DNA of 64,000 nt from Plumapathes pennacea. Taxonomy: Eukaryota > Cnidaria > Anthozoa > Antipatharia > Myriopathidae. This document shows positions 20,468 to 54,620 of this stretch, piece after piece. The stretch covers positions 14,902,069-14,966,068 of the forward strand of contig OZ038463.1 in assembly GCA_964036295.1 (NCBI GenBank), given 5' to 3'. Below the pieces are notes generated by a model. The model made no database searches. It was not told the DNA's origin and worked only from the letters and a program-made list of their open reading frames with translations. Made by a program: the position numbers and the translations under genes. The stretch's first letter is position 1. Each line of letters opens with the position of its first letter.

Positions 20468-20669
20468 CTACTTAATGTAAGTTCAAATATACTACGCTCT
20501 CTTGGGCCCAGTCCATCGCAGAGGAGACGGCAGATGCATCACACAGCCTTTTTTAAAAAAAAAAACAAAACAAAAAGAAAAACAAAACAAAAAACAAAAA
20601 AACCAAAGGTTCACCTCAGGACCGTGTGCCATTAGAAGTATATGAATTTAAAAGTAAATAATTATACCC

Positions 20670-23110: not shown

Positions 23111-24796
23111 TTTGCCTACATAAACCCACTCACGATATTATATGATACAATTCCTTTTATGAATACTATATAAAAATTTTCAAACCCAGCTTTGATTTAT
23201 GTCCAAATATTCACCTCGTATAACCACTTTCAAGTTTTGACACCTTTTTCGAGAGTTTAAAAAAATTAAAACTGTTAAAAGTAGTTAAGTCATGCTTAGC
23301 ACGCACTACGTGTTGAAAACACCAACAAACGAAATTAAACAGAAGAAAAAATAAATTACAAACTTGCTAAACTTGAAAGAAATCAAATAAATGAAATTCG
23401 CTTACATTGCTACTCCCTTGACTACGAACTGGGGAGAGCTCACAATAAAAAAATACAAATGTTTCGAAAAAGTGTAGAAATAGAACTCGTAACTAGGAAA
23501 ATTAGTAAACCCACCGCTACCATTTTTTCCGAAAACTGCGTGTTATCGCGCGCGTTCGTGTAAGTTTTTAGTGAGTATGTGCGTCCTCTCAGCACCTTTA
23601 AAATTCCTTGACATCAAGTAGGTCCCTTCATTTTCCAGTGTAAAGTAATGCATTCTACAAAGAGTTCAACGTCTTAGCTCAACAGCGTCCTGCGCTGCAC
23701 TCAACTGCATTTGCGGATTACGGATATTAACTTCACACTCCGGTGGAGAGGATATCAGGCTCGGAGTGGAAATTCTTCGTGGAATCCGCAAGACGACTCA
23801 AAGCTGGACTGTCAATCGGCATTGGCGAGCTAATGAGCAACCTGGGGAGAACAGGAGCGTCAGTAAACCATTTCCCCCAATAATTAGCAGCTGATTGCGT
23901 GCATTGTGGGCAGTTGATCTAACTATGAATGATCTTGATGTTACACATATTCACGGCTCGCTCGCTCATCCCACTCACTTAACTCCCATGGCCTAAAGCT
24001 TCAAGAAAGGCGACACGCTTTCCATGGTCAAAAGTAGAATACTGATGGTAACCAAGATAAAATTATAAATATTAAAATACTGTGCGCACGTATTTGTGAA
24101 ACTCTAAGATGGTCTTTTGTTCCACCTCGTGCCGTATTGTTCCAACGAAATATCAAGGAAAACAACCGACACTGTCCATTTCGTGTGAAATTCCGTTCTA
24201 ACTCAACATGGCCGACACACGGAGAAAGGGCGTATGAGTAAGCTGCTGATTGGCTAACAAATAATATCATGTAATATCGAGTCGTCTTATCTGAATAACA
24301 ACGTCACGCCGTGTCTATGTCTGCAGCTTATCTTGCCATTCCTGGCTTGGAGTATAAAATTGATTATTACTCTGCTAAGCCGCAGGGGAAAAAGAGCTTA
24401 AAAACATAATACGAAGGCCTTGGATACAAGCTTGGCGCTGGCTAATGTGGTGCGAGCGCGTCAATAATGGCTATAAGAAAAATGGGTGGGATAAATTTGA
24501 CTGAAAATAAAGCTCATGTTCAAACTGTTACAGTCTCAGTGTTTCAAGCAGAGGTGTTTAAATTATTAATATTATTCTATTATTATTATCATTGTTGTTA
24601 TTATTATAATGTTATCATATTTATTATAATATTTTGTCAAAGCATGAAATTAGCAATTTTTAAGACAGAACACTGTCCTTACGTCATAGCGTGATGGATA
24701 TGAAAATGACGATTTGCTTGTCTTGTCTGTATTTTGCCAGGCAAAAGTATTTCGGAGTCATCGGAGAATCAAAACCACGCTTGTATTTCTGAATAT

Positions 24797-27653: not shown

Positions 27654-28127
27654 ATCTATGGTATGTATTTACGAAAAAGTACGTTCAAAATGTTACAAGC
27701 CTTACATAAAGTCCGCGAATTCATTTTCCATTAAAAGTAGCAAACTTGAATTGTTCAAAGCCAGAAGCATGTGTATGCAGTGGACTATTTGTATACAGTA
27801 ATTAGACAATTGTATAAACCTTTAGTCATGCTAAAGTTATAATTGCATATTTAGGCAGCATAACATGCTTTCCATGTCTTTTGTACTTTCTTAAACACAC
27901 AGCATGTTAAAAATCAAGAACCTCGTGTAACCATCGTTATTTATAAAACAGTTTATTAACTAATCAGAGCGTGCGTAGTGCCGTAGTTATTTATAAAGGA
28001 GTGTTTTAAACTTTGATTCTTTGCATTATTTAAGTTTTAAATTACTCTTACTATTGAACAATTTCTTTAGCCTATATATTAAAGTTGGCACGACAGTGTC
28101 TTTATATGTGGTTTATAATGTGTTCAG

Positions 28128-28264
28128 GTATGCCGCACGGCCGTCTTGCCGATATCTATCAAGACTTGTGCCCGAGATGCGCCGAAAACTGCCCCGCACT
28201 ACGGTGGCGTGGAAGTTCTCGTGGTCTAAAGAGTGATGGTGAAGAGGGGACCTTTTGGGAGGTC
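28128..28264. other. Candidate exon, strand uncertain
   Basis: This GC-richer block has a + acceptor (GTGTTCAG at 28120-28127) with frames open to stops at about 28230, 28236 and 28264. On - it has a better acceptor (CACCATCACTCTTTAG) giving a 67-nt terminal exon 28225-28159 that reads PRELPRHRSAGQFSAHLG and then a stop, in phase with the - exon at 30154-30060. The - reading would make it the last exon of the long SOWAH form. Both readings have no homologue that I recognise. Confidence 0.35.
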
Positions 28265-30059: not shown

Positions 30060-30154
30060 CCCGCGGCACTTGGTCCTTGATAGGTGTGTTGCAGGGACGG
30101 TCTGGGCTCTCTGTTCTTGTGCTTTTTCCGACTCAGGAGTTTTCCCAATGATTT
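30060..30154 (-). CDS. Candidate basic exon, distal SOWAH form
   Basis: Acceptor TTTATGCGACAG and donor GTAAGT bound a 95-nt exon reading KSLGKLLSRKKHKNREPR then PSLQHTYQGPSAAG (phase 0 in, phase 2 out). It joins in phase after 35365-35229, giving RDRS-KSLGKLLSRKK. The basic, Ser-rich composition fits the C-terminal tail of a cytosolic or nuclear scaffold. Assignment to the SOWAH gene rests only on strand, order and phase. Confidence 0.5.
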
Positions 30155-34439: not shown

Positions 34440-34789
34440 ACATTCACAGCCATACACCAGCGTTCTCCTACTACACATTTCTAGTGCTTTGTAAAGTATT
34501 TGTATGCACAGAAAAGACGTTAAATTTTGTTTTCTTTACCAAAGGACCAAGTTCATCGCCAGCAGACTGGAATAACTAGCTTGGTCATACATACAGTGGG
34601 AATTATTACTATATACTGCACAACATAATGTCCTAAGAACACGTGACAACTGACAGGGTTAAAATTACACAATGACTTTAAATTATACCAACAAACGACT
34701 TTACACAGAGGAAGCCAGAAGAGATCAGGCAAGTTAGAACACCGCGACGCAACACAACACATCTAAGCACTAACAGCGGAGAATACGAA

Positions 34790-35140
34790 TGACGCCGCGG
34801 CACAGCACGGCATGCACACAGCACAACACAATACAGTGCAGCACAGCAAAGCACAACACCGCACAGCACAGCAAAATACTGCATAGCACAGCACAGCGCA
34901 GCACAGCACAGCAAACGTAGTGCAGCACAGTACATCGTAGCACAGCACAGAACTGCAAGGCACATAAAAGCACTGCACAGCACAGCACAACGTAGCACAG
35001 CAAAGCACTGCAGCACACAGCACAGCGTAGCACAGCGTAGCACAGCACATAACAGCACATCGCAGCACAGCACAGAGCTGCACATCATTGCACTGCACAG
35101 AACATAGTAGCACAGCACAGCACGCATCTAGCACACTGCA
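34790..35140. repeat. Degenerate GCACA satellite
   Basis: About 350 bp built of irregular GCACA, GCACAGCACA and TAGCACAGC units. The Cys/Leu/Val-rich frames on - are produced by the repeat. A looser, related tract (CAGAGCAGAGAACAAAACAG, CAGCATAGTACAGCATAGTA) continues at about 35460-35800. Confidence 0.85.
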
Positions 35141-35228
35141 CTGTACAGAACAGAACAGGTACACGCAAAAACAAAGACGCCTTATGTCTGCACTGCCGGT
35201 CACATCCACGCATTATAAAGCGACTCAC

Positions 35229-35365
35229 CGATCTATCCCGCCCTTTTTCCGGTGGATCTTCGTTGTGACGATGGGATTTGTCGCTGGAACTGTACGAGCT
35301 TGCTAACATAGCACTTGGTGAGATGCTGGTCCACGAACCACCGTAACCAGACTCTGAGGAGGCAG
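35229..35365 (-). CDS. Candidate Ser-rich exon, distal SOWAH form
   Basis: Acceptor TTCTCTCTACAG and donor GTGAGT bound a 137-nt exon (phase 1 in, phase 0 out) reading ASSESGYGGSWTSISPSAML, ASSYSSSDKSHRHNEDPPEK and GRDRS. It can be joined in phase to SOWAH exon 39529-39500 directly, or to an internal donor of the exon at 38187. Codon use and composition are protein-like. Membership of the SOWAH gene is inferred from strand and phase. Confidence 0.55.
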
Positions 35366-38187: not shown

Positions 38188-41100
38188 CTGATGGCGCACA
38201 TGCACAATGATTATAACAAACATTTCAACATTAACCTTTTTACCCGTTTACCTCCAACGTTTCTGTATCCAATAGAAACTTCAAAATGCACAAATAATGA
38301 ATTCGACTTAATATATCAAAGTGAGCGTTCGCGACTTCCTCTCGGATAAAGGTAATTCATATTAGTACTATTTACTGTCGTATAAAAAGGTTCTCGACTG
38401 CAAAATGTAGATATGATGTTATATCTTTCCAATGCACTTTAAAAGTATACTGCGATTTAGGTTAACTTTAAATTGAGCGTTTCTGAAACGAGAATCAGAA
38501 CAAAAATCCTGGTCCTCACTAGCGCATAAGCATATACACAAAATAGCGACAGTTGCGACATATGTATAAGTATAGGGATCAAACACGTTGAAACAGATAA
38601 CAGCAGAGATTAGACGAAATGGAAAAAAGGAAATTATTGCTGCACGAACAGACAAAACGCAAAGCGGCAGATTACAAGCAACACCGAACAAATAGCGGCT
38701 GGAAAACTAAAACATTAAGGTGATGTTACACGAGACGATTTTTAACGACGATTTTTAGCGACGATTTTTAATGCATGTTACACAAGACAACTTTTAGCGC
38801 AACATTGTTGCGGCAAAGGCATGTTACACGAGACGATTTTTAGCGCAACATCCAGCCAGCGCCCAGGCTCCTACTCCAAAAACATGACAGCCTTCACCAA
38901 AAGCAGAACTTTGTGCGAATGTTGTAATTAATCGATAGTTTTGAAGATTACCAGACGCAAACACGAGATAGAATTGTTTTGACGAGGGAATGGATGAAGA
39001 GGAGAGAAGAAAGAGGGTTTATCACCAGTTAATCAGAGAATTAAACGTAAAAGATGAACCGGCCTTCGCTCGATATTTCCTGATGGCAAAAAACAAGTTC
39101 GACGAGCTGGTCGGCCGAGTCGCCACACAAATACAGACTGGTTTTAACACAATAATGAGGGCGTCAATAAGTCCTGTGACGTCAGTGTTGCGCGAAAAAT
39201 CGACCGCGAGGGTGTTACACGAAGCAACTTCAACAAAATTCGGGCAACATTGTTGCATGCGTTTGAAGGCCATTCAAAAACTTTTAACTTGTTGCCGCAA
39301 CGAAGATTGCGTTAAAAATCGTCCGGCGCGCCATGTTACACTATGACGATTTTTCGCGCAACATTGTTGCGCTAAAAATCGTCGTTAAAAATCGTCTCGT
39401 GTAACATCACCTTTAGACCAACACGGACAACAAACAAGGAGAAAGTAGAATATGGAAAAAGGAATGGAATAAAATGGAACTCATCATCACAAAGCTTACC
39501 CGAGTAAGAAGAAAGTTGCTCCAATTTTTCTGTCGAAAGAAAATCATTCGTTACCAACGAACCTAAAGCAGATTTAACAACCCGCTATGAAACAAAGCCC
39601 TGCACAAAATAGCGCAAAAGCGTCTTTGATTCTAATAAGAACATCAATTGCGCATCTGCAGTGGTATAGTCAGATGCTTTGCAGTCTCACGCAGTCTTGT
39701 ATTGAAAGTGCGAGCTGAATGGGCCGTAAAGTCTCCGTGTGCCGTCAAGGCCGTGAACTAGGTCTCACCCGAGAGACCACATAAATGGCAAAAATATCCA
39801 CGTCTTTATGTAAAGGGAAATTAAACTATTAGTGAACAACTCCATAAAATGATAACGGTAGGAGGATCTCGTGTACAATAAAAACCACGATGCTGCACTC
39901 AGGTGATCAACTTCTAGTTTCTCTTTTAGTCTCTTACCAGAGATATATAATAAAGTAAGGAGAACTTGACGTTTGAAAGTTGACTAAAATGACAGCTGAT
40001 TGAACTATCAGTTCTCGCTACAACAACTAAACAGTTTCTTCTTTAACAGTAGGGAGAATTTGAATGTAGAACTTGACTTACGCTGCGCCTCGATAGTAAG
40101 CGTCTCTTTGGCCACTTGTCTCGCCTTCCGTCCGCTGTAGTCTCTGATGTTGATGTCAGCGTCTGAAAAAAAAATGTAAAATTTATCACTGGAGTTAGAG
40201 ATTTTCTAAATCGTGAGGAATTGCGTGCATGTGTGTAGAACGAAGGTGACTGTTAGTTTGAACGTGTTACTAGACTTTATTGTAAATTATTCAGACCAAT
40301 AGAAGTGCCCAGTCTGAATGAGCCCAAAAAAAAAAAACAAAAAACAAAAAACAAAAAACAAAAAACCCAGGAGAGAGGAAAGTCGGGTGCGGGAAGCCTT
40401 GAAATTGTACCACACCCCCCCCCCCTCCCCCACGCCCAGTATTGTCTTGTATTCCAGTATTGTGTACACCCCTTTCTTCAGTTCACTTTTCTCTCTGCAG
40501 ACGTGCACCGAAAAGATAATACACAAACAAGACCGACCGAAGGACAAGGAAAGGCATCTTACCATAGTCATCCACCAGAATTTTGATTACATCATCATGT
40601 CCATACATACAAGCGAGATGAAGTGCAGTGTAGCCCTGAAATGAAAGCGGGAAATTAAAAAACAAAACACCAGAAGGTCGGACGTAAACACTGGACAACG
40701 TAAAGTACACAAGAGTTTAAAGTATGATAAAGCAAATAAAAGCTGATGTTTCGAGCGTTGACTTTTAGTTCATTTATCTCTACGCCGACGAAGTCTAAAA
40801 GTAGATCTCATGCACAAGTACTAGTAAGGGGGACAAACAGATGAATCGGGTGACGGAGGGAGAAAACACTGCCAAAACGGACGAGGCAAATGGCGTGTAA
40901 CGACAAGATCATGGGTGCGACTGACTGACAGACAGACAGACAGACAGACAGGCGGGCAAGAACAAGATGGGAGGGAGCACTACAAGTACAGACAAAACAA
41001 AAAAAGAAAAAAAAGACAAACATGGTTAATCACTTACCCCCTACATACATCAAGGATAGCGGTCAGAACCACATGAAGAGAGATAACACATATTGCATCA

Positions 41101-44100
41101 GTATTGCGTATTACATACACGTCCAAAATATGGAAGTCAGATTTGACGAAATTAATCTCAGTCAGTCTTGACAGTGAGTGTGCTCAGTTTAGCCACCAAT
41201 CCACATGTATTCAGTAACAAACGGGAGAAAATATAACATAGAGCAGAGTATCACCATCACTTCTCTGGAGACCGACTACACAGCGCGATATCAGGATACG
41301 TCTGTCCGGGCACGCGGCCTGTTTTATGCTGAACACCACGTTACGCTTATGACATGTGTTTTGGCCAACGAACGTCAAAAAGTTAAAACAAGTTTGTACG
41401 CAACCTGTCGTAAGAATTCATGTGGCAGACGTAAGCAAACAACGTTCATGTACTGTGTGAGACGACCCCACGGCTGCTCTCAAGGACAACTCATGTGAAC
41501 AAACAAATAAGCAAACAAACAATACTTACATGCTGTAACAATCCAGGCATCCAGTTGCAATAAGAAAAGAAAGCAAGTGTTAGTCTTCGCGAAAAGAATA
41601 TGGCTATTCTCTTGTCTTCGCTGAGTTTTAAAAGTTGGACTAACAATACAGAAAGTATGCACCTTTTGATAACAGATAGCAACGAGAACGCGGAAAACAA
41701 GAGCCTCAGCTTCTGTGAACTCGTTTTTGTTCCTACAATGCTTACATACCGTTTTTACATTCACGTCAATTCCTGTTTTCGCCAAAAGTTTCACAATGTC
41801 TTCTCTGCCACGTTTCGCTGCCCAGTGTAATCCGGTCTGACAAAAAAAAAATTAAAAAAAATACATAACAATAATAAAAATCTCTAAACAGAAATATAAG
41901 CCAGACAGACAAACAGACCCGCAGGTGCTACACTGAAAATTTCTCATGACAGAAACTCTTGTTGTGACAGATGTCTTCTCTGCAACTTGAATCGCAACAT
42001 ATTTGTTACGCAAAGCGTTTTATGAATGAGAACTCAGTCCTACAGTACTATTTTTGTAACGATTGCAACACCTTTCGGTTGCCGTCAAAAGTTCGCGAGC
42101 TCAAGTTGCACAGTGTACAGTAACTGCAAAATTCAGCTGAAAAAGCAGAACGCTAAAACAATACTTACATACTGTAAATGGGGGAGAACAAAACATCCCA
42201 TTGCCAGGAAAATATATGCAAGGAAACAGAAATGTCAGTACCGTTGACAGTTGACAAGGTAACAAAATACAGTCAGCGTCAGTCAGAACTTTCTGTTACT
42301 TTCTACTTCACTATCCATTATCCAAGCCTCGGTGTGATTAAAATGTTGATACACAAAACTATCTTTTCAGAGTGCAACGTTGGCTTACGCAGAAAAAGCT
42401 CGAGGAAACAATGATCTGCAAAACAGTTAAGAAAACTACACGCAGCGACGCGCGGCTTTTCGTTAATAGGCTTTGGCGTGTGGTACGCGCGCTAACCACG
42501 CGTGGGCACGTGTTAAACTCCTTAAAAGCACTACTACTATGTATACTGCATTGCACGTATAGTGAGTGTACACCTTACTTCGCGCGGCTTTTCGTTAATA
42601 GGCTTTGGCGTGTAGTGCGCGCGCTAACCACGCGTGGGCACGTGTTAAACTCTTTAAAAGCACTACTACTATGTATACTGCATTGCACGTATAGTGAGTG
42701 TACACCTTACTTCGCGCGGCTTTTCGTTAATAGGCTTTGGCGTGTAGTACGCGCGCTAACCACGCGTGGGCACGTGTTAAACTCTTTAAAAGCACTACTA
42801 CTATGTATACTGCATTGCACGTGTAGTGAGTGTACACCTTACTTCGCGCGACTTTTTGCTAATAAGCTTAGGCGTGTAGAAACTCTTAAACACACTACGT
42901 GTACTCATCAGACTGGAGGGTCACTTACCCCCTGAAGGAACATTCAAACGCAGTGGAGCAAAATGCAACGGAGAGAAAAGGCAGTATTAGAGCTTTGAAT
43001 TGGTCAGGAGTAAGAAAAGACGGCTACTACATCATTCATAATGATTACTGTATGCAGTGCCTGTGTCTGTGAGTGCAATACATACAACCAGCTATTACTA
43101 TGCAACTAATGTCAGCAAAGGCAACAAAGTATACACTATCATGCAAAGTACATGTTAATATATTGCTACAATAAGTGGTTCACATAAACTACAGACTGAG
43201 TGACACATACATGTACAGTATAGTAACTTACCAGCACGAAATCCTGGTATCAGTGAAGGAGAGAGAGAGAAAGTAAGAACAAGAGATTAACTTATGTTGG
43301 CACAAACCAGATATGTACCTTAAAAAAGCAGGCAGCAATAGAACAAATAAAACAATGTGGCTTCTATATCAATAGGATTCACACAAAACTTGGGAGCAAA
43401 TTAAATATGTATTTTCATGGTATCTCAATGACTTATGTGATGCTTTACACAATGATTCCTATACGTTTCCAAACATTGGCTTATTTAGTAATTTGTGAAA
43501 AACCCTGAAATTCCATAATTTTCCACGACCTAATTTGATTAAATTTTCTTGATAAAATCTGTGAGTGTAAAGCAATTTTTACTTTCCATGAGACAGAGGT
43601 TGTTCAACAGGATTCAAACTCTCCTTCAAAAGATGACATGCTTTACTGATGTAGGATTGTGATATTTAGGGTAATTAATATTTGCACCTTCTTTCCTGCC
43701 AAATTGGGGTCTTGTTCCAACAGGCACATGATTTGGGCTCGGTTACCTCTTGCCAATGTCAACAACCATTCTTTTTCAAGTGGCTCAAGCTGCAGGAGGA
43801 ATGTAAAAAAGTACATAAGATGAAACCAGGAAATATGTCAGTCTTTGCAGCCCTTCTTTAATCCCCAGAAGCTCCGAAACAAATTGTCAAAATTCCTTTT
43901 CACATAGAAAATGCTGTAGTTTCAAACTTAAACAAAAACACAAAGCATGTTCATTCAAAAGAAAATAAAAGTGTCCATGAGTGCATTCTAAGTTTTTATA
44001 TTCCTATATATGTACCTCAAACATCTTTTGTGCACTGTTCAACAACAAAACAAAACATTACTTTTATCTTGGTATCTTTCTCATCATAAAACAAAATTTA

Positions 44101-47100
44101 CCCTTTCACTCCCAAGAGTGATCAACTTCAATTTTCTCCTTCAGTTTCTCACCAGAGATATATCATACAGTAGGGAGAACTTGGCTTTTGATATCTTGCT
44201 CTGATGACAGCTGATTAAACTATCATCTCTCACTACATCACTCATACATTTTAATCTCAAAAGGTTTAGAGAATCTGCATTTTGAGCTTGGGAGTGAAAG
44301 GGTTAAAATAAAGTTATAAATTGTGCACTACTCACACTTGTCACAGGACCTGTCCATTCATCTCCTGTCAATTAACAAAAGTGTTTTGAGACCACTGAAA
44401 CCCTGGGGGAGGGGGAGGAGGAGGGGGGGGGGGGGGGGGGGAAGGGGAGGGGGTGCACCCATATATAAGCCTATAATAGGTATAATGTGCCACCTCAAAG
44501 GGTATCATTTTCAGCATTTTAGTCTGAAATAGGGTATCGATTTTGAGCCTTTTGATTTTGATATTTGGTCTGAAATAGGTCGAAAATCCCACATGTTGGT
44601 CTGAAATAGGGTCAAAAATCGCAAATTTTGGTCTGGGTTTGGGTTTCCAGCCCCGGGCGGCACACTTTCACCCAAAATTTGAGGAGTACCCCCCAGGGAC
44701 TGAAAGTACAGTTTTCACAAAAGGAGGTCACTAGAACAAGATATGGAGGGAGAGCCTGCAATAAAATGCACCCAAATTTGTTCCTTCTGCCCCCAAATAG
44801 TGAATTTCTATAGCTATCAAAATCACATGATGAGAACAAAGAAAATGTGTTTTATGTTGCTAAATAAATGTTATTTCCTTGTTATGAATTGTAAACATTT
44901 ATACATGCATGATTGTATTAAAAATACCTGTATTATGTACTGACTGAGATATACAGCAATGGAAGTCTGTTGTCAGTGATAATTACTGCAAAATATCTCA
45001 GCAAAATAACGGTATAATAATGTGTACAGTACACTGTGCTGTAACAGTTGCAACTGGCTTTTCGGATCAGTGTGAGCACACATACATGTGAATAATCCCA
45101 TCACATTACTGTATGTATACCGTAGTAACATTGCCAAATGTTACGACAAAAAAGTCAAGATGAAAAGGAAACATGTAAATTACTTACTGCTGCCAATTTT
45201 CCTAAGTTTTCTTGCCATAAATGGAGGAGATATTACAGCCATATACTGCCAAAATCTTCATGATCAATTTGTAATTCAACCCGTGATAGACCACATGTTG
45301 TGCTGTGGGTTCTCGTTTGTCTGCTTTTCATTCAATCAGTTCCACCTGGTGTGTTTTTCATAGGCTCACTGATGTCATTGTTATATCTAATAAAAAAATG
45401 TCTGCCTACAATGAAAACTTGGCACTTCTACTAAACGTACACGTGTCAGAATTAATAAAACTGAAATCCTACTTTTTAGTGAGCCAATTATTTCATAATT
45501 TACAGGTCCACACATCATACTATGCCTGCATAAACTTTATATATCTTCTAAAGATTTTTTGTGAATGCAAATTACTTTATGGCATATTTTGTAGAAACAG
45601 AATATTAAAGTGTTGCACTGTGCAAGAAATAAAAATATATACACTCAGGTACAGGCAATATTGTAAGTTGTTTGGTAGAATAAAATCATATACATATATA
45701 TATGCACTGAAGTGCCAATTTTATGTGAAAAATAAAAATATCAAGTGATTCATTATGCATCTATGTATGACACCTTCAGTCGTACAGTGGCTCCACAGGA
45801 CGGCATAATTATGTATTTATTTTCTTAAAGATTAAACAAAAAGCTTTATGAATAAACAAAAATACTAGTCAACCACTGTCTTACAGTACAATCATGTAAT
45901 AAATACATGTTTTGCTGGTGAACATGTTTGTCAATCATAATGCTCATGTGCAGTACAAAATAATTTGCAAGTTAGAATAATTTGCATAAATGTTTTATAT
46001 TGCTTGTTGTAAAATTTAAATTAAAATATTTTTGTCAAATCTCCAGATTATAAAATGAGTATAACAATACTCACAGTGTGACATTTATTGTGGTGCAAAC
46101 TTGTGTGTATGATCACAGATCATTCACGACTGCTGCTTTTACAATACATTTTACACATTAAATGCTGGTAGATGTGCTTTCAATATTGGTAATAAAATAA
46201 TGTGTACAGACTGAACCTTTTTATTGTTTAGCTCAGTATTTAAATATTACAACAACTGTGAGTACGTTTTCAAAGCTGGCTTAACATAATGGACAGCTAC
46301 AGTATGTTCCAAATATCATTTTGAGCTCCCTAGAACTACAACCATTATATAATTAATTTAACAGTATTTATTATATAGACACGAGTGTTTTACTGGAAAA
46401 TATACCGTGCGTAAAATCCATACGAAACTACATCCGGGACCCGAGTGGCATATTTTCCATATCTTCACTAGTGAGGATACCGTTGGCATCATTTCCCGCT
46501 TTTGCATGGTTGTTTGTGCAATTTCTCGTAAAACACTCGTGTCTATTAATATAATAAAAAGAAAATTACACGGCGGCTTGAAAATATGGATTTCATTTTT
46601 TCTTGGTAAAAACAATATTTTACTCATTCACAAAGCACTCATTCGTAAAATATTGTTTTTACCACTTGAAAATAAAATTCACATCGAACGCGTTTGCATT
46701 CGCGTTCGGACGCGTTTCTGACTGCATTCGCGTTCACCACATTCAGCCATTGTTATTCATTTTGTCACCTTTGGCTTGTTGCCATTGTATGGGCAACAAA
46801 AGCCAGCGATGTGACGGCGTTAATCCGCATACACCCCTGCACAGCCACATTTAAAAATCAGTTGGATGACAAGTCCATACGTAAATTTAGAGGATGAGAT
46901 CAAGACTTAGTTACAATATTAATTATGTATCACACCAAACTTACCTTCCTCCTCATCCAATTTTTCCTTGAAGAAAAGAAAACAAAATTTTAATTATGGT
47001 GGTTTTGTTTTGTTTTGATTCATACAATAACTAATTAATGTAAATAATATTATGTACTAACGCCTGCTTATGATGCGGCCCCACAACTTCAATGTCATAG

Positions 47101-50100
47101 CAGAACTCTGACAAAACAGTCAGTAGAGCTGACGTCCACTTTGTAAACTAGCACGAGGTAATGCTAATGAATTAATGTACAGCAATTTGATCTGCTATAT
47201 TGGCTGTGATTCTAAATCAGCACAAACTCGGAAGAGTGTTTTGAATATGGCAAGCAGGGACAATCAGATCGATCAGTCGTAACATGGGCACCTCAGGAAA
47301 GTTGAGCTTCTGTTGTAAAATATAAACATGGGCGTGCAAAGCATCTATGTTGACAAGGTCTCTTTAACAGGGAACACAATTTATTATTAAAAGTTTTCCA
47401 ATGGCTGCCGTGGCTCGACCCAAATAATATATTTTTATACAACTATAATATTGTGTTCCCAGTAGGAATTGTTGAATGTACAGTTTGTAACTTGGAGCCG
47501 GCAACTGCTGTTATGACTGTTCAACACATTGCCAATACTGTACATACAATACCTGGTCTTCTCCTCCAGATAGTTGAGAAAGTTGGTCAGGGTCTTTTGC
47601 ACCAGGATGAAGAAACTTGCTTTGCAATCTTGGTGTGCCAGATCGAGAACCACTACCAGTGGAGATATTCTACAGAAACAAAACAGAAATATGTGTACCT
47701 GGTTGATGTACAATATACTTTTGTCTACACTTACACTGCACTAAAGTGTGGAGAAAATGGAGATATTTTGTAGATCAAGTGCACTACAGTTTGTGTGCTT
47801 AAAATAGTCAGAAAATTAATGTACAGTGTAAACTAAACATTGCATACAATCATGTATGCACTCATCGAGGTGTAGTCAGTATGTCATGTACAGTTAGTAT
47901 TCCATTGTGTCCACTATGCAGTAGGTGCCAACAGGGTCAACAGGCAGGAGATTCAGGCAAGAGCTAAAGGCCCCACTCAGCCAAGAGGTAACCCACCTCT
48001 GTAAGGAGGGAGGGAGGGGGCGGGGGAGGGAGTTTAATGGTAAAGCTGATAATTATTTGTTATACAGTATGTCACTTACATCCCCCTCCACAAGCAATCC
48101 ATTCTCCACTGATTCTTTACGCTGTGGAACATCAAGCCGGCCATCTTTTTCTGCAGGTCTGTTCTCTTTTTCTGAGCTGCCCCCAGAATCACCAACTGAC
48201 ACACCTCGTGCCGATGCAAATTCTTCCATCTTAGCATACCTGAACACAGGCGGTCCTGAAGTGGGCCGATCTTTCCTCGTAGGTCTAGGAGGTTTCCTCA
48301 TAACTGCTGGACCCTCCTTTGGACGTTTCAGCACAAAATATTTTTCCCCCTGCATATGACCAGAAAATAAAGATGTATTTAATTATTAATGGAATGATAC
48401 AGTGGGCTGTTATCATGTAGAGTAGATCTCTAAGCAGTTCAAAGAAATCTTGTACACAGGGAGGCTCCTGCTTTTTGCTCCCTACTCTCTAATGTACACT
48501 TCTGAGGTAGAAATAAGGACCCATAGTGGACAATTCTCTCTGTCATGTGCCTTGAAAAAGTACAACATGCACAGTGTACTTAGTCCACTTCTGACAGACA
48601 AATTAATTCCCCTTAATCGGAATTAACAAGCTAGAACTGGTAATAATTATTATTAATAATAATTATTACATTATTAATAATAATAATAACTTTATTCAAG
48701 TGGACGTGTTAATGTATTTAGCTTATTGGTTAATGTAGTTAGCTTATATACACTATAAAATAATTTGTTGGTGAAAGTAATTGGGAACTCCATTATTAGA
48801 TAGTAATGTGTACAGCAATGCATTAGATATAAATTCTACCTGAACTAAACTGGTTGGATATAAAATAGTCCGATTATGGATAAAATATGCTTTCAGACTT
48901 GCACTTCTAGCATGTATGTGCTACAAAGTGCACAGCAACTACAGTTGTTGGCTATGAGACAAGAGAGATCTCTCTTGCATATGTTTTTCTTAAAACAATG
49001 TAAGTAGCTACAGTAGATATATTTATGTCCTTTAACTGCTAAGTTTGGAACAGAACTCTTGCTCTCTAGATTTTTTACACACTTCACTGATGTGTTTGTT
49101 GAAGTTTAGATGTTCATCGATATGCACACCAAGTAGCTTATGATCTGGGGCATAAACTAGTACTGCACCTCCAGTATGGAGTTGAAAGGTCCATTTTATC
49201 AGCGTCTATATTTACAAAAATCATCCTGGAAGGTGGAATATGAATATGTAGTACTGAACGATATTGTGATTCAATAGCCTGGCGCATATGAATGGACATG
49301 ATCTAAGTTGGCTCTTGTAACCATTATACTGTAATGCAAGGTTTACAAGATACAAACTACAGTGTAGTATTTGCTTTTGTTATTTAATTTCTATAGGCTG
49401 GTTTACACGGTAAATCAAGCGCAATAGAATGAAAACTTTTCCATTCTCTTGCGCTTGCGTTTGGGCTCGCTTTACAAATGTTATCGTGTGAACCGGTCGC
49501 TTGCGTTTGCGTTTGCGTTTGTGCTTGCGCTTGCGCTTGCTTTACTCGTGTGAACCAGCCTTATGAGATCAACAGAGTTATTAGGGAACAAAATTAATGA
49601 GCTTCGGGTGGTCAGACTAAAGCCCGGAATCAAATACAAAGTATTACGAAAAACAAACAAACATACGCACACTCAATGTTCAACTCAATGTCAGGGTCAC
49701 GTTTATACAATTTATCAAGTCTACAAAGATGCGTGATCAATGAAAAAGAAAACATTTCAACTCCTGGATTAAAACAGGAACTTGCCAGTCATTACATTTC
49801 CATATAAACACAGGTTGATATTGCAAAATACCGGCCTTTGATTAATTGTTCTGCTTTGAAAGACTGAGATAAATAAATATAAAACACATAAAACGATCGT
49901 GCAGAAGTGAGCAGTGATTTACAAGAAGACATCGAAAACTTGCATGTTAACTACTGTAGACTAAACCCAATGAAGGTGCATTCCAATATATAAACCGCAT
50001 TTAACTATAAACTTCGAAGAAGTTGTGAGCTTACCGCTGGTGTAGATTGGACTGTCGCGATGGTGTGCACAATTTCCATGAATTCTGCTCTTACTTTGCC

Positions 50101-50311
50101 TTTTAGATAACCAAATCAAAGCATCGGTGATACACGAAAACGCAAACAATAACCAGATTGCGAGAACGACAAAACAATACTCACTCTTGTTAACAGGGTC
50201 GTTGAGTTGTTGTCGGAAATGTGTGACCAGGTCGACATTTCGCACTTTTCCGTCGTTTTTCACCATAAATTCTTTTACGGACGCTTCCGTCAAAGGCTCG
50301 TTTGCTGACAT
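37829..50311 (-). CDS. Sosondowah (SOWAH) family ankyrin-repeat protein
   Basis: Intron-rich SOWAH homologue, probably a cytosolic or nuclear ankyrin adaptor; its partner is unknown. Exons on -: 50311-50185, 50099-50035, 48349-48080, 47669-47553, 46966-46945, 45201-45188, 43789-43688, 43243-43232, 42931-42929, 42171-42169, 41836-41750, 41532-41530, 41040-41038, 40635-40563, 40162-40082, 39529-39500, 38187-37829. The phases all match; total 1371 nt, 456 aa. The N-terminal domain is typical of the family (SVKEFMVKNDGKVRNVDLVT, then VHTIATVQ and GEKYFVLKRP). A Ser/Pro linker follows, then LEPLEKEWLLTLARGN, two ankyrin repeats (GYTGLHWAAKRG, HGGYTALHLACMYGH) and DADINIRDYSGRKARQVA. The tail is Lys/Glu-rich. 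The mammalian genes are, to my knowledge, intronless or nearly so. The exon at 45201-45188 is the least certain join. A longer form using 35365, 30154 and 28225 is possible. Confidence 0.85.
38718..39412. mobile_element. Internally deleted Harbinger element
   Basis: 695 bp flanked by TTA (38715-38717 and 39413-39415). Ends AGGTGATGTTACACGAGACG and CGTCTCGTGTAACATCACCT. Subterminal regions repeat GACGATTTTTAGCGCAACAT many times in both orientations. An open frame at 38990-39346 on + starts MDEEERRKRVYHQLIREL and includes ARYFLMAKNKFDELVGRVA, resembling the N-terminal part of Harbinger (HARBI1-like) transposase; the catalytic part is missing. It lies in the SOWAH intron between exons 39529-39500 and 38187. 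Confidence 0.8.
39898..40076. mobile_element. Degraded CACTCCCAAG-family element
   Basis: Shares GTGATCAACTT, TCTCTTACCAGAGATATAT, GGAGAACTTGAC and GACAGCTGATTGAACTATCA with the element at 44098-44305 but has lost clear ends. It abuts the splice donor of SOWAH exon 40162-40082. Confidence 0.6.
40927..40953. repeat. (GACA)n microsatellite
   Basis: Six to seven GACA units within a SOWAH intron. Confidence 0.85.
41038..41040 (-). CDS. 3-nt microexon GGG (Gly), SOWAH
   Basis: On - the sequence is TATGTAG|GGG|GTAAGTGATT. It follows CAT (His) and precedes GGC TAC, so it supplies the first Gly of H-G-G-Y-T-A-L-H, the conserved start of the second SOWAH ankyrin repeat. Phase 0 on both sides. Confidence 0.75.
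41530..41532 (-). CDS. 3-nt microexon CAT (His), SOWAH
   Basis: On -: GATTGTTACAG|CAT|GTAAGTATTG. It lies between exon 41836-41750 (ending NVKT, donor GTATGT) and the GGG microexon. Phase 0 on both sides, adding one His. Confidence 0.75.
41750..41836 (-). CDS. First ankyrin repeat exon, SOWAH
   Basis: The acceptor TTTTTTTGTCAG is followed by ACC GGA TTA CAC TGG. It encodes 29 residues, TGLHWAAKRGREDIVKLLAK then TGIDVNVKT. The family motif requires G-[FY] directly before T-x-L-H-W, which is missing from this exon and is supplied by the two preceding 3-nt exons. Confidence 0.85.
42169..42171 (-). CDS. 3-nt microexon TAT (Tyr), SOWAH
   Basis: On -: CCATTTACAG|TAT|GTAAGTATTG, ideal acceptor and donor three bases apart. 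It supplies the Tyr of G-Y-T-G-L-H-W. Phase 0 on both sides. Its flanks closely resemble those of the CAT microexon. Confidence 0.78.
42451..42890. repeat. 132-bp tandem repeat, three full units plus a degenerate one
   Basis: Units begin CGCGGCTTTTCGTTAATAGG at 42451, 42583 and 42715, with a diverged fourth at 42847; they are 97-99 per cent alike by eye. Each has GCGCGCTAACCACGCGTGGG and a CTACTACTATGTATACTGCA segment. Since 132 is 44 codons, one frame stays open through all copies (42372-42935). The array sits in the intron between the TAT and the upstream GGG microexons. Confidence 0.9.
42929..42931 (-). CDS. 3-nt microexon GGG (Gly), SOWAH
   Basis: On -: ATGTTCCTTCAG|GGG|GTAAGTGACC. It joins DFVL (12-nt exon) to Tyr (TAT exon) and supplies the conserved Gly of the D-F-x-x-G-Y-T motif. 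Phase 0 on both sides. Confidence 0.78.
43232..43243 (-). CDS. 12-nt microexon (DFVL), SOWAH
   Basis: On -: CTTCACTGATACCAG|GATTTCGTGCTG|GTAAGTTAC. It encodes D-F-V-L, matching the invariant Asp-Phe that follows the Lys-Lys/Lys-Arg end of the preceding family segment (here LAGKK at 43688). Confidence 0.82.
43688..43789 (-). CDS. SOWAH pre-ankyrin exon
   Basis: 34 codons beginning LEPLEKEWLLTLARGNRAQI and ending LEQDPNLAGKK, the family-typical helix pair (x-P-L-E-x-E-W-x-L...L-L-x-x-D-P-x-L). The acceptor CCTCCTGCAG is strong; the donor AAG|GTGCAA is weak. Confidence 0.85.
44098..44305. mobile_element. CACTCCCAAG-family MITE, best copy
   Basis: Ends TTACCCTTTCACTCCCAAG and CTTGGGAGTGAAAGGGTTAA are inverted repeats. 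Interior TTCTCACCAGAGATATATCA, GGGAGAACTTGGCTTTTGAT and GACAGCTGATTAAACTATCA are shared with related pieces at 19061-19484, 39898-40076, about 14480-14590 and about 57415-57577. Confidence 0.8.
44399..44700 (+). repeat. TCTGAAATAGGGT subrepeat family, copy 2, with poly-G
   Basis: Shares CTCAAAGGGTATCATTTTCA, AGTCTGAAATAGGGTATCG and GGCGGCACACTTTCACCC with 14618-14870, in the same orientation. A G-only run (about 44416-44441 within a longer purine tract) precedes it and can form a G-quadruplex in principle. Confidence 0.75.
45188..45201 (-). CDS. Probable 14-nt microexon, SOWAH linker
   Basis: AACTTAG|GAAAATTGGCAGCA|GTAAGTAATT on -. It is needed to reconcile the phase-1 end of exon 46966-46945 with the phase-0 start at 43789, and reads (G)-K-L-A-A. 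The acceptor has a poor pyrimidine tract. A 2-nt alternative (CAG|CA|GTAAGT) would also restore phase. Confidence 0.45.
46375..46546. mobile_element. MITE with 19-bp perfect TIRs
   Basis: ATAGACACGAGTGTTTTAC at 46375-46393 is exactly inverted at 46528-46546. A second, smaller hairpin (GGTAAAAACAATATTTTAC at 46605-46623, inverted at 46645-46663) follows at once and may be part of a larger composite. Confidence 0.8.
46945..46966 (-). CDS. 22-nt microexon, SOWAH linker
   Basis: TTTTCTTCAAG|GAAAAATTGGATGAGGAGG..|GTAAGTTTGG on -. It encodes E-K-L-D-E-E-E and ends in phase 1. The flanking sites are near consensus. Confidence 0.6.
48900..49290 (-). pseudogene. LINE reverse-transcriptase fragment
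   Basis: On - the frame GGAVLVYAPDHKLLGVHIDE followed by HLNFNKHISEVCKKSREQE is the post-polymerase (thumb) signature K-x-L-G-V-x-I-D...L-x-F-x-x-H-I-x-x-x-C-K-K of CR1/jockey-like elements. It is flanked by no other element part that I can recognise and lies in the SOWAH intron between exons 2 and 3. Confidence 0.75.
49395..49561. mobile_element. Harbinger-like MITE, family A copy 2
   Basis: AGGCTGGTTTACACGGTAAA to CGTGTGAACCAGCCT, flanked by TAT on both sides (49392-49394 and 49562-49564). The interior is the reverse of the copy at 1351-1523, including the GCGTTTGCGTTTGCGTTTG array and GTTATCGTGTGAACCGGTCG. Confidence 0.8.
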
Positions 50312-51936
50312 TCTCGAATTTCTCTTTCCAGTATAGCAACTGACACTGTACTATGAATTCGAGATGATTTTCAAAGACGATAAAGGAAGGAATGTTCCGC
50401 CATTGAAAACAAGTCACGTCACGCGAAGGCGAGGCTTCCGAAACCTCTAGAACCCAGGTCATCACAACGACAGACAGACAGACAGCGCATCGAAATTGGG
50501 CCTGCGCCTGCGCCTTGGCAATCTGTTCTCGACCCGCAACATTTTCGATGGCTTCCAAGTTTTTTTGCGTGGCAGTAATTTGTCGAAACCAAGAATATCT
50601 GCCTTTTCCGTTGTGGAAATGATCGAACTAAAAGCCCACAGAGAAGAACGTTGCAGCCAAACTCAACCTCGAGCACTGTGCAACAAATCTTTAAAATGAT
50701 CACAACGACGACATCAATAGAGTGACGCTATTAATTTTTTGAGTTTCGCGCAAATTTATTGTTACACAGTCCTATGGGACTCTAGTTCACCAATAAGCCC
50801 GCTGTATAACGCTGACAATAGCCAAAAAATCAATGGCATGAAAATAACCAAAGGATAAACATTTCATTAGTTAACTTAATTGCCCATTATTACTCGCTGT
50901 TCCTAAAGGATTTTCATACCATTTAACACAAATCATTAAAGCGAGTTATTAGTCTTACCTACTCCAAGCTTGTTCCTATTTAATTTACGTATGTTTGCGT
51001 CTCATTTTAAACGCGGGGGCTATAAAATACTTATGTGAAATCACTCTGTTCGATAATTACGTTCTTTGCTGTCCCAAACGGCGACGCCGTTCATACCACA
51101 CCTGCATGGCCTTTTGTCAAAATCTTAAACTGAAAGATTTGGTGTCCAGTCTCAGATAGGGTCACAAATTATAGCACTTTCTTTTATATGGCACTGTTCT
51201 CTTAAACAAAGTCAGTAAAGTTGCAAGTAGGGTCGCAGGGTCAGAGTGCACTGAGCGGGGTGGGGGGGGGAGGGGGGGGGGGGGAGGAAAGCGGAATATA
51301 CTAATCATAACAAAGCAGGAAACTTAGCAAAATAAAATATTGACCTAAGGTAGCTACGCACTACGATCTTTGTTACTTTACTCAGCGGGTGTGTCGCGTG
51401 ATTCATATTTTTACCACTTATCCTGCATAGCTTAGTTAGATTGAGGGTGATAGCTGACTTCAGCATGGTGCAGCCGCTCGCGCAAGAAAACTGAGAGGGC
51501 CTGGAAAAGATGAACTCATCCATCGAGACGCACACTTATGACGCAAACTTTTAATGGCTTTACCGTAAGACACTGTTACTACCTCGCAGCTACGTTATAT
51601 TGCCCAACATTACTTGTCCAAGCAGAAAACAATTAAGTGGCAATAAAAAGTATCGTACAAGGCCGATAACACGCTTCACCGGCAAAGGAGTGCAACTGTG
51701 CGAGTTCAGTCAACTGACAAGTTCCCAAAATAACTGGAGTATCACAGCACAACAGCAGCCAGCAGCAATATTTTATATAAGCTACTATTAAACAAAAATG
51801 AAGGTAAATGCACACTACAGCTTGTTATAGATCACCCGTGACAATCTGCCCCGACCCGCAGCAATTAGAATACCCGCGACGCGCGACGCGAGACCCGCGA
51901 ACATTAATTTAGAGTACAGATCAAACTTGTGATATA
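50312..51936. other. Upstream region of SOWAH gene
   Basis: Holds the putative SOWAH promoter just above 50311, where GTCACGTCACGCG (near 50413-50425) and GGCCTGCGCCTGCGCC (about 50500-50515) look like CRE- and NRF-1-type sites. Beyond that I see only AT-rich sequence, a relic of the TCTGAAATAGGGT repeat at about 51120-51240 and a poly-G run at 51257-51290. Confidence 0.45.
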
Positions 51937-53997
51937 CATGATACGATACGATACGATAATCTTTATTTAAACACGATAAGAGTTTAAGCATCAGCTTGTG
52001 GGGTCGTGTATAAAAACAAATGGAGTTCGAATTACACCAAGTATACAGCTCGTCGAGCGAATTGTTGAGTAGTTCAGTAACTTCGTCCACAGAGTCGCCA
52101 ATACAATAGAGTGTTGTGTCGTCCGCATACATAAAGACTGTCCCAGAGGTGACCGCCAGCGGCAAGTCGTTTGTATACAATGTGAACAAGGACGGGCCGA
52201 GGACGGAGCCCTGCGGTACACCGCAGGTCACTACAGCATAATCTGACCTTTGTCCGTTTATGGTGGTGTACTGCTGTCTTTGCCCTAGGTAGTCTTTCAG
52301 CCACGATAGTAGACATCCGGTGATTCCAAAACAGTGTTCAAGTTTGCTCATAAGTCTGAGATGTGATACACTATCGAACGCTTTCTGGAAATCGATGAAG
52401 ACTACGCCGACAATTTTTTTGGAATCAAGGGCTTTTCTCCAGATCTCAGTTCAATTGACCAGTAATAGGTCTGTGGAGTGTCCCTTCCTGTATGCCCATT
52501 GATGTCCTGTGACCAGTTGGTTGTCTGTGAAGACGTGTTGAACAATACTGTCTGTTATGCATGATTCAATGATTTTACTAGGTACACTTAAAATTGACAA
52601 CGGTCGGTAGTTTCCACACTCTGTTTCATCCTCTTTCTTGAACACCGGGTTTACCCTCGCTGTTTTCCATGCACTGTAGACGGTTCCACTGTTTATGCTG
52701 TGCGAGTACAGATCTGTGAGTGGTGGTGCGATTGCCGGCCCAGCTAGTTTCAATAGCTTGGGCGATATTCCATCCGGGCCCGTTGACTTATTGGTCTTCA
52801 GTGATGCAACATCGCCAGAAATTCCGGACATTTTGCGTCCACGATTGCTTCCGGTCTTTCCCAGCGGCGTGCGGTATGAGCATGCGCCATTCACACATTC
52901 AACATTGATACGTACTTTGCCTCAGTGGGGTGGGGGAGGGATGGGTTTCTCCGGTTCAAAAAGAGACTGCTACGTTTAGGAGACGTGCCGCTGAACGACC
53001 TAGTTGAAACTAGCTTTCGTTTGGTGCAATTTTCATGCGATTTGGAGCTTCCCAGCCCAAAATATCAACATCCGAAGTCAGCGTATTTCACGGGAGGTAT
53101 TCGCCATGGCTGGCTGTGAACTGCAAATTCAAACACAAAAAGTACACATCGAATTTGCTCCAGGGGACTGACTGAGGCTTCACAGGAGATGTTCAATCCT
53201 TCGACAATCAGGTACGGGGTAGACATTTTGCGTTTTACCCAAGGTTCTTGTATTAAATGCAGCTTCAAAAGTGACAGTAGCCGGTTTTGAGCGTATTCTG
53301 CTATCAATCCCTTCTTACGTCGGCCGAAATTTTAAATTCAAAAAAGTACACATCGAATTTTACCGGAGATAAATATTTTTTGTACTGTTGTGTTTAGGAA
53401 GCTTCCCTCTTCCGAATGCTGCCCAGACATTTTTACGAACGTGCTTCAGTTAAGCGAAAAGCGCAATTTATTATCAGATCCCATACATTTCTTTGTTATT
53501 TCTTGAGCGGCTGTCAGCGTGAAACCTGATGCCTCTTCCGAGATGGCGCAACCGGATGTCTGAAATTTCTGGCGATGAGTTTCTTTTCAATGTTACTATT
53601 CTGTAAGCTTATTTCAGATGTCTTCTGGACTTGGTCTTTCTTTTGTTTGTCAGACAGTGGCAGTGACGGGCAATTCATAGTCAGGGTTTTTCCAATAGTA
53701 GCAAAGAATGTATTCATCAAGTTTGCTTTTTCTTTGTCGTCTACAGCAAGGCTTTTGTCATCGCGTTTCAGTGGACCAATGCTTTCCTTAACCTTGGGAT
53801 TAGTCGCCTTTTTTAACAGTTTCCAATATGCGGTTGATGACTTGACTTCGGCCAGTTTATCATGGAAGTATGAGGCTTTAGCCCTCCTGATTTCTGAAGT
53901 TATTTCATTTCTGAGTCGTTTGTAATCAGCCCATATCTGATTGGTCTTTGTGTCGACAGTTTTCACTGAAAGCCATCTAAACTCCACCATCGCCGAT
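51937..53997 (-). pseudogene. CR1/L2-type LINE, 3' part, decayed
   Basis: On -: linker (FRWLSVKTVDTKTNQIWADY...), then the reverse transcriptase: NKSTGPDGISPKLLKLAGP, PVFKKEDETECGNYRPLSIL, FIDFQKAFDSVSH, GVPQGSVLGP and YADDTT. At least one frameshift and stop lies near 52450 and others near 52900-53500. After W-C-N-S-N-S-I the protein jumps to 3' untranslated sequence with AATAAAG and a (ATCGT)n tail at 51937-51960, so the thumb region is deleted. It is not functional. Confidence 0.85.
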
Positions 53998-54044
53998 AAT
54001 GAGCGTAACTGTGGTGTCGCGTAATGTTGTATATAAAAGTAATG
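53998..54044. repeat. Duplicate of nearby intron sequence, unit 1
   Basis: GTAACTGTGGTGTCGCGTAA followed by TGTTGTATATAAAAGTAATG is repeated at 55139-55182 with one mismatch. This copy lies exactly at the junction between the - and + LINE fragments. Confidence 0.85.
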
Positions 54045-54620
54045 TATTTATATGTATATTACACATAAACGGCCTTAAATTCTCCCGCCTTGATCGGTCA
54101 AAGCGCAAAGGTGGTGGTTGTGTACTATATTATGCGGAACACCTCAAAGTCACATATCGAAGGGATTTAACCAGAAGCGAACTAGAAGCTATTTGGATAC
54201 AGGTCAACTTCCCAACGAATACTACCCTGTTCTCAGTGATATACAGATCGGAACTGGAATCACATAACTTCTTCGAACACTTTAATGAGGTCCTCGAAAA
54301 GGCATGGCTGAAATCTAGTCATATATTCCTACTTGGTGGTCTCAACTGCAATATGATCAACGCAAACTCGTCCAACATCCAACTAAAGACCAAAACTTTA
54401 CTAAACATACTTGATCTATATAATATGCAGAATGTCATCAAGGATCCCACTCGAGTGACACCTGAATCTGAATCCTTAATAGATCTAATTGTAACAACAA
54501 AGGCGAATTTAGTGCGTAAAACCGGTGTCCTATCTCTGGGAATATCGGACCACAGCCTGGTCTATGCTACAATCAAACTTACAAACAAAGTTAATAAAGT
54601 TACAAGTTACACATAACAAA
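54045..54620 (+). pseudogene. Inverted LINE endonuclease fragment
   Basis: In + orientation: SRLDRSKRKGGGCVLYYAEH, ELEAIWIQV, SSHIFLLGGLNCNM, DPTRVTPESESLIDLIVTT and GISDHSLVYATIKL. This is the second half of an apurinic-type endonuclease domain, with the S-D-H-x-x-V end motif intact, while the G-D-x-N site is changed to GGLNCN. It is the 5' part of a LINE but opposite in orientation to the adjoining RT part. Confidence 0.8.

Follow-up and report, generated by a model that had tools for sequence, protein, structure and literature searches.

Single exons of 3 nucleotides (nt) are established in animals (PMC8042270, PMC7392893), and as of 2015 constitutive exons were put at 6 nt or more and alternative ones at 3 nt or more, until a constitutive exon of 1 nt was described (PMC4674806). 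In Drosophila homothorax (micro-Ex8), troponin T and rodent NCAM, a single in-frame codon lies between introns as in the gene described here, but each of these genes has one 3-nt exon and it is alternative (PMC7392893, PMC8042270). Human RPS24 likewise has consecutive microexons in one gene, of 3, 18 and 22 bp; these are alternative and close to the 3' end of the gene, and only one of them is of 3 bp (PMC11162997). These descriptions reflect the available parts of the papers. A search of the open-access literature, within the text that could be accessed, did not bring up any gene with more than one 3-nt exon or any paper that contains both 'SOWAHC' and 'cnidarian'. Of two further papers, PMC8797185 mentions 'cnidaria' solely among its references, and PMC7821500 concerns how microexons are detected. 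Here we analyzed a 64,000-nt stretch of DNA (the window) from the antipatharian Plumapathes pennacea (GCA_964036295.1, contig OZ038463.1, positions 14,902,069 to 14,966,068), whose genome of 290 Mb is assembled in 24 contigs. On its minus strand, one SOWAH (sosondowah) gene appears to contain four 3-nt exons that are probably constitutive. In our reading, to which we assign a probability of about 0.93, phase-0 introns would divide the coding sequence for the starts of two ankyrin repeats of this gene into one exon of 12 nt and four of a single codon each.

Results

The SOWAH gene and its ankyrin block

As judged from its sequence, the gene to which all four sites belong is a SOWAH ankyrin-repeat gene. 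Named matches above E 1e-24 are mostly SOWAH proteins, with a few anthozoan ones labelled hypothetical or uncharacterized. The first 110 residues share 66-78% identity, over 97-100%, with 10 of 10 matches, all of which are annotated with PF25877, the N-terminal winged helix-turn-helix domain of SOWAHA-C; PF25877 itself gave no match at E 0.01 in a search with an early model that has the same N-terminus. The homologue search, the domain search and the N-terminal comparison used this earlier model, which differs in its last exon (38187-37829) and leaves the ankyrin block unchanged. In its final form, the model comprises 19 exons between 50311 and 23733 on the minus strand; it is 1368 nt long including the stop codon and encodes 455 amino acids, and every intron is GT-AG.

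The ankyrin block reads KK, DFVL, G, Y, TGLHW...NVKT, H, G, GYTALHL, and its junctions are all in phase 0. Exon 7 (43688..43789, 102 nt), placed by tblastn and the model as are exons 11 and 14, encodes LEPLEKEW...NLAGKK. A cluster of exons of 12, 3, 3, 87, 3 and 3 nt follows, each of them entered in phase 0. The cluster is headed by exon 8 (GATTTCGTGCTG, 43243-43232), a 12-nt microexon for DFVL with a GTAAGT donor, which the original prediction of the four 3-nt exons had not listed as a microexon; anthozoan relatives have DFML, DFMQ, DFIL or DFTS in its place. Exons 9 (GGG, Gly) and 10 (TAT, Tyr) encode G-Y, referred to below as pair 1, and exon 11 (41750..41836, 87 nt, TGLHWAAKRG...VNVKT) encodes the first ankyrin repeat. 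Exons 12 (CAT, His) and 13 (GGG, Gly) encode H-G, pair 2, and are followed by exon 14 (40563..40635, 73 nt, GYTALHLACMYGHDDVIKILVDDY) for the second ankyrin repeat (GYTALHL...). Introns 7-13, all in phase 0, measure 444, 300, 757, 332, 217, 489 and 402 nt, those beside the 3-nt exons spanning 217-757 nt. When microexons are taken as internal exons of at most ~30 nt between GT-AG introns, the gene has those of 3, 3, 3, 3, 12, 22, 29 and 30 nt.

Residues supplied by the four codons

The two ankyrin repeats, with DFxxG[FY]TxLHW and xGGYTxLHL, are incomplete unless all four codons are included. We collected 85 homologues; a pattern search found one or both of the two motifs in 35, and the remaining 50 are mainly other ankyrin proteins and truncated anthozoan models. 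Pair 1 is G followed by Y or F in all 34 relatives with the first motif. In pair 2, the G, itself part of the search pattern, follows H, N, S or A in all 34 with the second. With the four codons the protein has the residues of these SOWAH relatives, as the original prediction had claimed.

We also scored the block against a family hidden Markov model (HMM) made from 16 of 17 chosen relatives (one lacks the region) and with the window sequence left out. The block scored 165.6 bits with the four codons included; the score fell to 151.3 without G-Y, to 152.0 without H-G and to 137.7 without any, a loss of 28 bits when all four are dropped. Dropping one codon of a pair gave 154.8 to 156.5 bits, which is 9 to 11 bits lower. 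In full-length alignments to four relatives, the four-codon version was 17 to 20 bits better. A search of solved structures matched other ankyrin-repeat proteins and designs among the best 60 of 439 matches.

The four sites and their chance expectation

Read directly from the minus strand, the four sites are exact: AG-GGG-GTAAGT at 42931-42929, AG-TAT-GTAAGT at 42171-42169, AG-CAT-GTAAGT at 41532-41530 and AG-GGG-GTAAGT at 41040-41038, all where they had been predicted. AG-N3-GTAAGT occurs only five times on both strands of the window; four of the five are the proposed exons and the fifth lies at 19733. The genome-wide count of YAG-N3-GTAAGT is 4438 over 2 x 290 Mb, or ~1 per 131 kb of strand, so that the predicted chance rate of about one per 65,000 positions was of the right order. 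For any one stretch of 1.9 kb on a single strand, the probability of at least four sites is ~2e-9, or ~6e-4 genome-wide, in a hand calculation that ignores arrays of repeats, though such arrays exist.

The original prediction had also held that the sites are not due to chance, and dinucleotide shuffles of the two intron blocks (block A, 1395 nt; block B, 1114 nt; 20,000 shuffles each) bear this out. At least two sites of any codon appeared in 35 of 20,000 shuffles of block A and in 2 of 20,000 of block B; none of the 20,000 in either block gave the right residues in order. The placement of exons 9, 10, 12 and 13 thus draws on the sites, these shuffles, the residue motif and the enumeration of exon chains given below.

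Anthozoan relatives

The other anthozoans are known here from proteins alone, in which two 3-nt exons and one 6-nt exon are indistinguishable. Five proteins of 469-480 amino acids (P0001-P0005), whose longest contigs measure 1.8-3.9 kb, carry the residues, with N-G instead of H-G; DF[MI][LQ]-GY and N-G stand in the same alignment columns as in the window protein. Their source is given as 'lgn', which we take to stand for assemblies of public reads. Such short contigs must be spliced complementary DNA if introns interrupt the gene in those species, and the broken genome models described next indicate that they do. In a tree of 18 proteins, calculated with the first 260 residues of the earlier model (ankyrin block unchanged), P0001-P0005 group among the stony corals and the window protein branches beside the stony corals, a placement with modest support (89/84), while three anemones lie outside this group.

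The models of eight of nine named anthozoan species (P0008-P0015) break or skip residues at the block, and in all six named stony-coral models the ankyrin repeats are stripped or damaged. The Orbicella model reads KKDFML and then VSTF, Porites KKDFML and then VGTL, Pocillopora KKDFMQ and then VCKY, Oculina KK and then VSCT, Acropora KR and then VKWL, and Nematostella KDFTS and then CEYA. Two models skip instead: Desmophyllum passes from KK to GYTPLHL without the equivalent of exons 8-13, and Actinia (P0008) from KKK to TALHW, omitting DFTSGY, which corresponds to exons 8-10. By eye, the five broken scleractinian tails all start with Val (GTN) directly after KK/KR or DFM[LQ], as expected for read-through of a phase-0 GT donor.

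Two direct comparisons locate the break. P0004 matches the Pocillopora damicornis model P0013 at 261 of 264 residues through DFMQ, after which P0004 reads GYSAIHW and the model VCKY. P0005 and the Acropora muricata model P0014 are identical at 257 of 260 residues through KR and then read DFILGYSALH and VKWLF, respectively. Past the break, the short-contig proteins alone continue as SOWAH. These computed breaks indicate intron positions that would be common to anthozoans, after KK, after DFxx, before the T of exon 11 and before the GYT of exon 14; shared positions do not imply that G and Y, or N and G, lie on separate exons in other species.

Alternative readings

The four microexons could be real but alternative, in which case skipping would alter the ankyrin repeats as a regulated switch; this overlaps with our best explanation and differs from it solely in constitutive inclusion. 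All four are in frame, so that skipping would preserve the frame, and 3-nt exons are alternative in the described cases, as far as the available parts of the papers show (PMC7392893, PMC8042270, PMC4674806). We nevertheless consider a switch unlikely: the residues are invariant or nearly so across the family and are present in all five coral transcript-sized proteins, and the skipping in P0008 and P0009 occurs in genome-derived models, not in RNA. Because the residues are part of the conserved core motif of the repeats, the four 3-nt exons are probably constitutive.

The G-Y and H-G residues could also come from another exon, larger or non-canonical, that was overlooked, with the AG-NNN-GTAAGT sites being fortuitous. 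We therefore enumerated all chains of one to three exons that sum to 6 nt in each block, using bare AG/GT and a minimum intron length of 40 nt. Of the 1078 chains in block A, 13 yield G[YF], and all 13 include the GGG at 42931. The proposed pair is the sole fitting chain of two exons; each of the remaining 12 combines the GGG with a 2-nt and a 1-nt exon whose donors are poor. Block B has 78 chains, of which three yield [HNSA]G, all of them with the GGG at 41040, and the two besides the proposed pair have poor donors. Only the proposed pair has good donors throughout, in each block. No single 6-nt AG..GT exon carries the needed residues among the 11 of block A and the 2 of block B, and by eye the flanking exons are not extendable into them. 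A larger overlooked exon had been named in the original prediction as grounds for giving it up; none fits among the chains of one to three exons totalling 6 nt. Judging from these GT-AG chains of one to three exons, we regard an overlooked exon as very improbable.

Several observations weigh against single-codon exons here or in the wider group. Exaiptasia, the ninth named species with two records (P0006/P0007), has an intact protein with every residue present, and Actinia P0008 retains the second pair; an ordinary layout therefore exists or is possible in these anemones, which favors an overlooked exon. In anemones, some of the codons may lie in larger exons or may be correctly annotated, and the second pair may be ordinary there since Actinia keeps it. 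The Oculina record is labelled X2 and the Acropora record X1, so that both genes may have intact isoforms as well. In Nematostella the tail starts with a residue other than Val, and the exon 13 acceptor has a poor pyrimidine tract (gctatccttgatgtatgtag). There is also no genome-wide surplus of candidate 3-nt exons: with a strong pyrimidine tract we counted 64 against 84 for the reversed pattern (48 against 65 for 2 nt and 85 against 82 for 4 nt), a filter that passes none of the four sites, so that weak-tract microexons escape this count, and without the tract the 4438 candidates compare with 5870 reversed. A mixed pattern of 1-12 nt gave 1272 against 808, inflated at least partly by repeated TTTCCAGTGTAAGT among the first 100 places listed. 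A viral-contig scan gave four pattern matches, none of them confirmed.

The least probable reading is that the ankyrin block has decayed and that the gene yields a shortened SOWAH lacking ankyrin repeats. Six annotated proteins might suggest this, those of five scleractinians and of Nematostella, which have PF25877 only and no ankyrin domain. Against it, the exons downstream of the block are open and in phase (exons 14 and 15 being clearly conserved), coral transcript-sized contigs encode the whole protein and five of five scleractinian tails begin as GT-donor read-through predicts.

A shared splice-site motif

The 22-nt splice-site neighbourhoods of exon 10 (42156..42177, minus strand) and exon 12 (41517..41538, minus strand) are identical at 21 of 22 positions, TTACAG-[T/C]AT-GTAAGTATTGTTT. 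Within them lies an 18-base motif, ACAGYATGTAAGTATTGT, that is 17/18 identical between the two exons, eight of its positions being fixed by the splice sites themselves. The motif has two exact matches in the genome, both in the block, and six one-mismatch matches elsewhere; there are 63 matches in all, compared with 45 for the reversed-pattern control. The exon 11 donor (41735..41752, minus strand), which is among the many two-mismatch matches, is identical at 16 of 18 positions to the exon 10 motif and at 15 of 18 to that of exon 12. This likeness points to either local copying of a splice unit or a shared constraint, as far as sequence comparison can tell. Exons 9 and 13 share AGGGGGTAAGTGA, which is too short to weigh.

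Comparing the introns with one another, we found no shared stretch longer than 20 nt inside the block. Intron 9, between the GGG and TAT exons, contains three repeat copies (42449-42879) at a spacing of 132 nt that are 95-98% alike to the reference and fill much of the intron. Introns 6 and 15 share a 173-nt stretch that is 75% alike (E 1e-29), perhaps a dispersed repeat.

Remaining exons and the rest of the window

Exon 1 (50185..50311, minus strand as for all exons) holds the start codon and the SOWAH N-terminal region (MSANEPLTEASVKEF...), with 64-75% identity over 44 residues to six of seven aligned anthozoan relatives; the seventh, P0001, gave a single longer gapped alignment. Exons 2 (50035..50099) and 3 (48080..48349) were placed by tblastn together with the frame and splice model, and exon 15 (40082..40162, ADINIRDYSGRKARQVAKETLTIEAQ) by tblastn and the model. 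Exon 4 (47553..47669), which has no tblastn match, exon 5 (46945..46966, 22 nt) and exon 16 (39500..39529, 30 nt) were placed by frame and splice sites only. Exon 6 (44336..44364, 29 nt) encodes (G)DEWTGPVTS, which aligns by eye with coral GDDLMGGPSAH; this exon replaced a 2-nt exon CA (45189-45188) that had served as a frame-mending placeholder between exons 5 and 7.

The C-terminal exons 17-19 were placed by weak matches (E 0.03 to 4), phase and a coral-like end, ...DILSTGV. Exon 17 (35229..35365, AASSESGYGGSW...DRS; best E 0.03) is like coral SSESSGYGSL...RSRS, exon 18 (30060..30154, KSLGKLLSRKKHKNREPRP...SAAG) has matches at E 1.7 and 4, and exon 19, the last (23733..23841, LLISSPMPID...SEPDILSTGV and the stop), has one at E 0.65. 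Once these three joined in phase with the coral-like end, the former last exon at 38187-37829 was dropped. That minus-strand frame of ~118 codons has an acceptor (ELNEHWENEGSG...) in phase with exon 16 and no match in the seven relatives compared; it is a possible alternative last exon or chance. Another possible alternative last exon (28113..28263, minus strand, ...TVVRGSFRRISGTSLDR..., E 0.06) is like part of Exaiptasia P0007 and the tail of Actinia P0008. The uncertain exons 4, 5, 16 and 17-19 have no bearing on the ankyrin block. At the start of intron 17, a long TGTGCTGTGC-like low-complexity tract (34763-35212) contains Cys-rich spurious open reading frames (ORFs).

Elsewhere in the window, the plus strand carries a G-protein-coupled receptor (61296-62237) in a single open frame of 313 amino acids, whose best match is an unnamed ENA protein (64%) and whose best named match is an Actinia galanin-receptor-like protein (38%). 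ORFs judged by eye include multi-exon pieces resembling a cytochrome P450 gene (~16200-20470, minus strand) and, upstream of the SOWAH gene (~51800-54600), reverse-transcriptase-like ORFs that are perhaps a broken retroelement. A viral-contig scan gave four pattern matches, none of them confirmed.

Discussion

The original prediction had read this locus as four single-codon exons in one ankyrin-repeat gene, and the residue fit, the chain enumeration, the coral contigs and the broken models support it. The sites, the unique solution among the chains enumerated, its fit in phase and residues and the matching break in other anthozoan models were computed directly; from them we infer that the four codons are probably used in the messenger RNA of this species.

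A 3-nt exon would be too short for both of its splice sites to be occupied simultaneously. Introns of 217-757 nt are short enough for intron definition. Stepwise intron definition is most likely, given that the two sites would hardly be occupied together, that the introns are short and that all four donors match U1 perfectly: the introns would be removed successively, in an inferred order that resembles recursive splicing. At each step, one codon would be joined to the growing exon, and the perfectly U1-complementary GTAAGT three bases on would become the next donor. Zero-nucleotide recursive splice sites, as found in Drosophila, place an acceptor beside a strong donor and are used stepwise. 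Such sites leave no coding residue, whereas here each step would leave one codon. The same combination of intron definition and recursive splicing was proposed for the 1-nt exon of Arabidopsis, in the part of that paper available (PMC4674806).

A further-reaching reading is that a constitutive array of single-codon exons is spliced with one codon added per step and is old enough to occur throughout the stony corals, if not in all Hexacorallia, that at least two of its splice units, those of exons 10 and 12, derive from one local copy and that the array has stripped or damaged the ankyrin repeats in the six stony-coral models; we give this whole about an even chance. The common descent of exons 10 and 12 is suggested by their 18-base motif, which has no other exact match in the genome.

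If the reading is correct, this gene would be an extreme case of both minimal exon size and the number of such exons tolerated per gene, as four codons, each with introns of 217 to 757 bases around it, would have to be found without an exon to define them. It would account for an annotation error repeated in the models of eight of nine named coral and anemone species, and similar blocks may conceal domains in other genes. Existing coral RNA-seq and genomes make it possible to test directly whether exons of a single codon can be both constitutive and old.

Two further systems, known to us from parts of the papers, invite comparison. Schistosome micro-exon genes resemble the present gene in that a single animal gene has numerous tiny, symmetrical exons; they differ in that alternative splicing yields a pool of slightly different proteins and in that no single codons in a conserved fold are described (PMC4350168). 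In plants, the 1-nt microexons and adjacent 5/12-nt microexons of APC11, VPS55 and peptidase M1 are, like the exons here, conserved and overlooked by annotation; that of APC11 is constitutive, and stepwise splicing by intron definition has been proposed (PMC8831610, PMC4674806, PMC11096116). These plant exons, however, occur as at most two adjacent tiny exons and are not single codons, whereas the SOWAH gene of this coral would have a pair of single-codon exons at the start of each of two ankyrin repeats.

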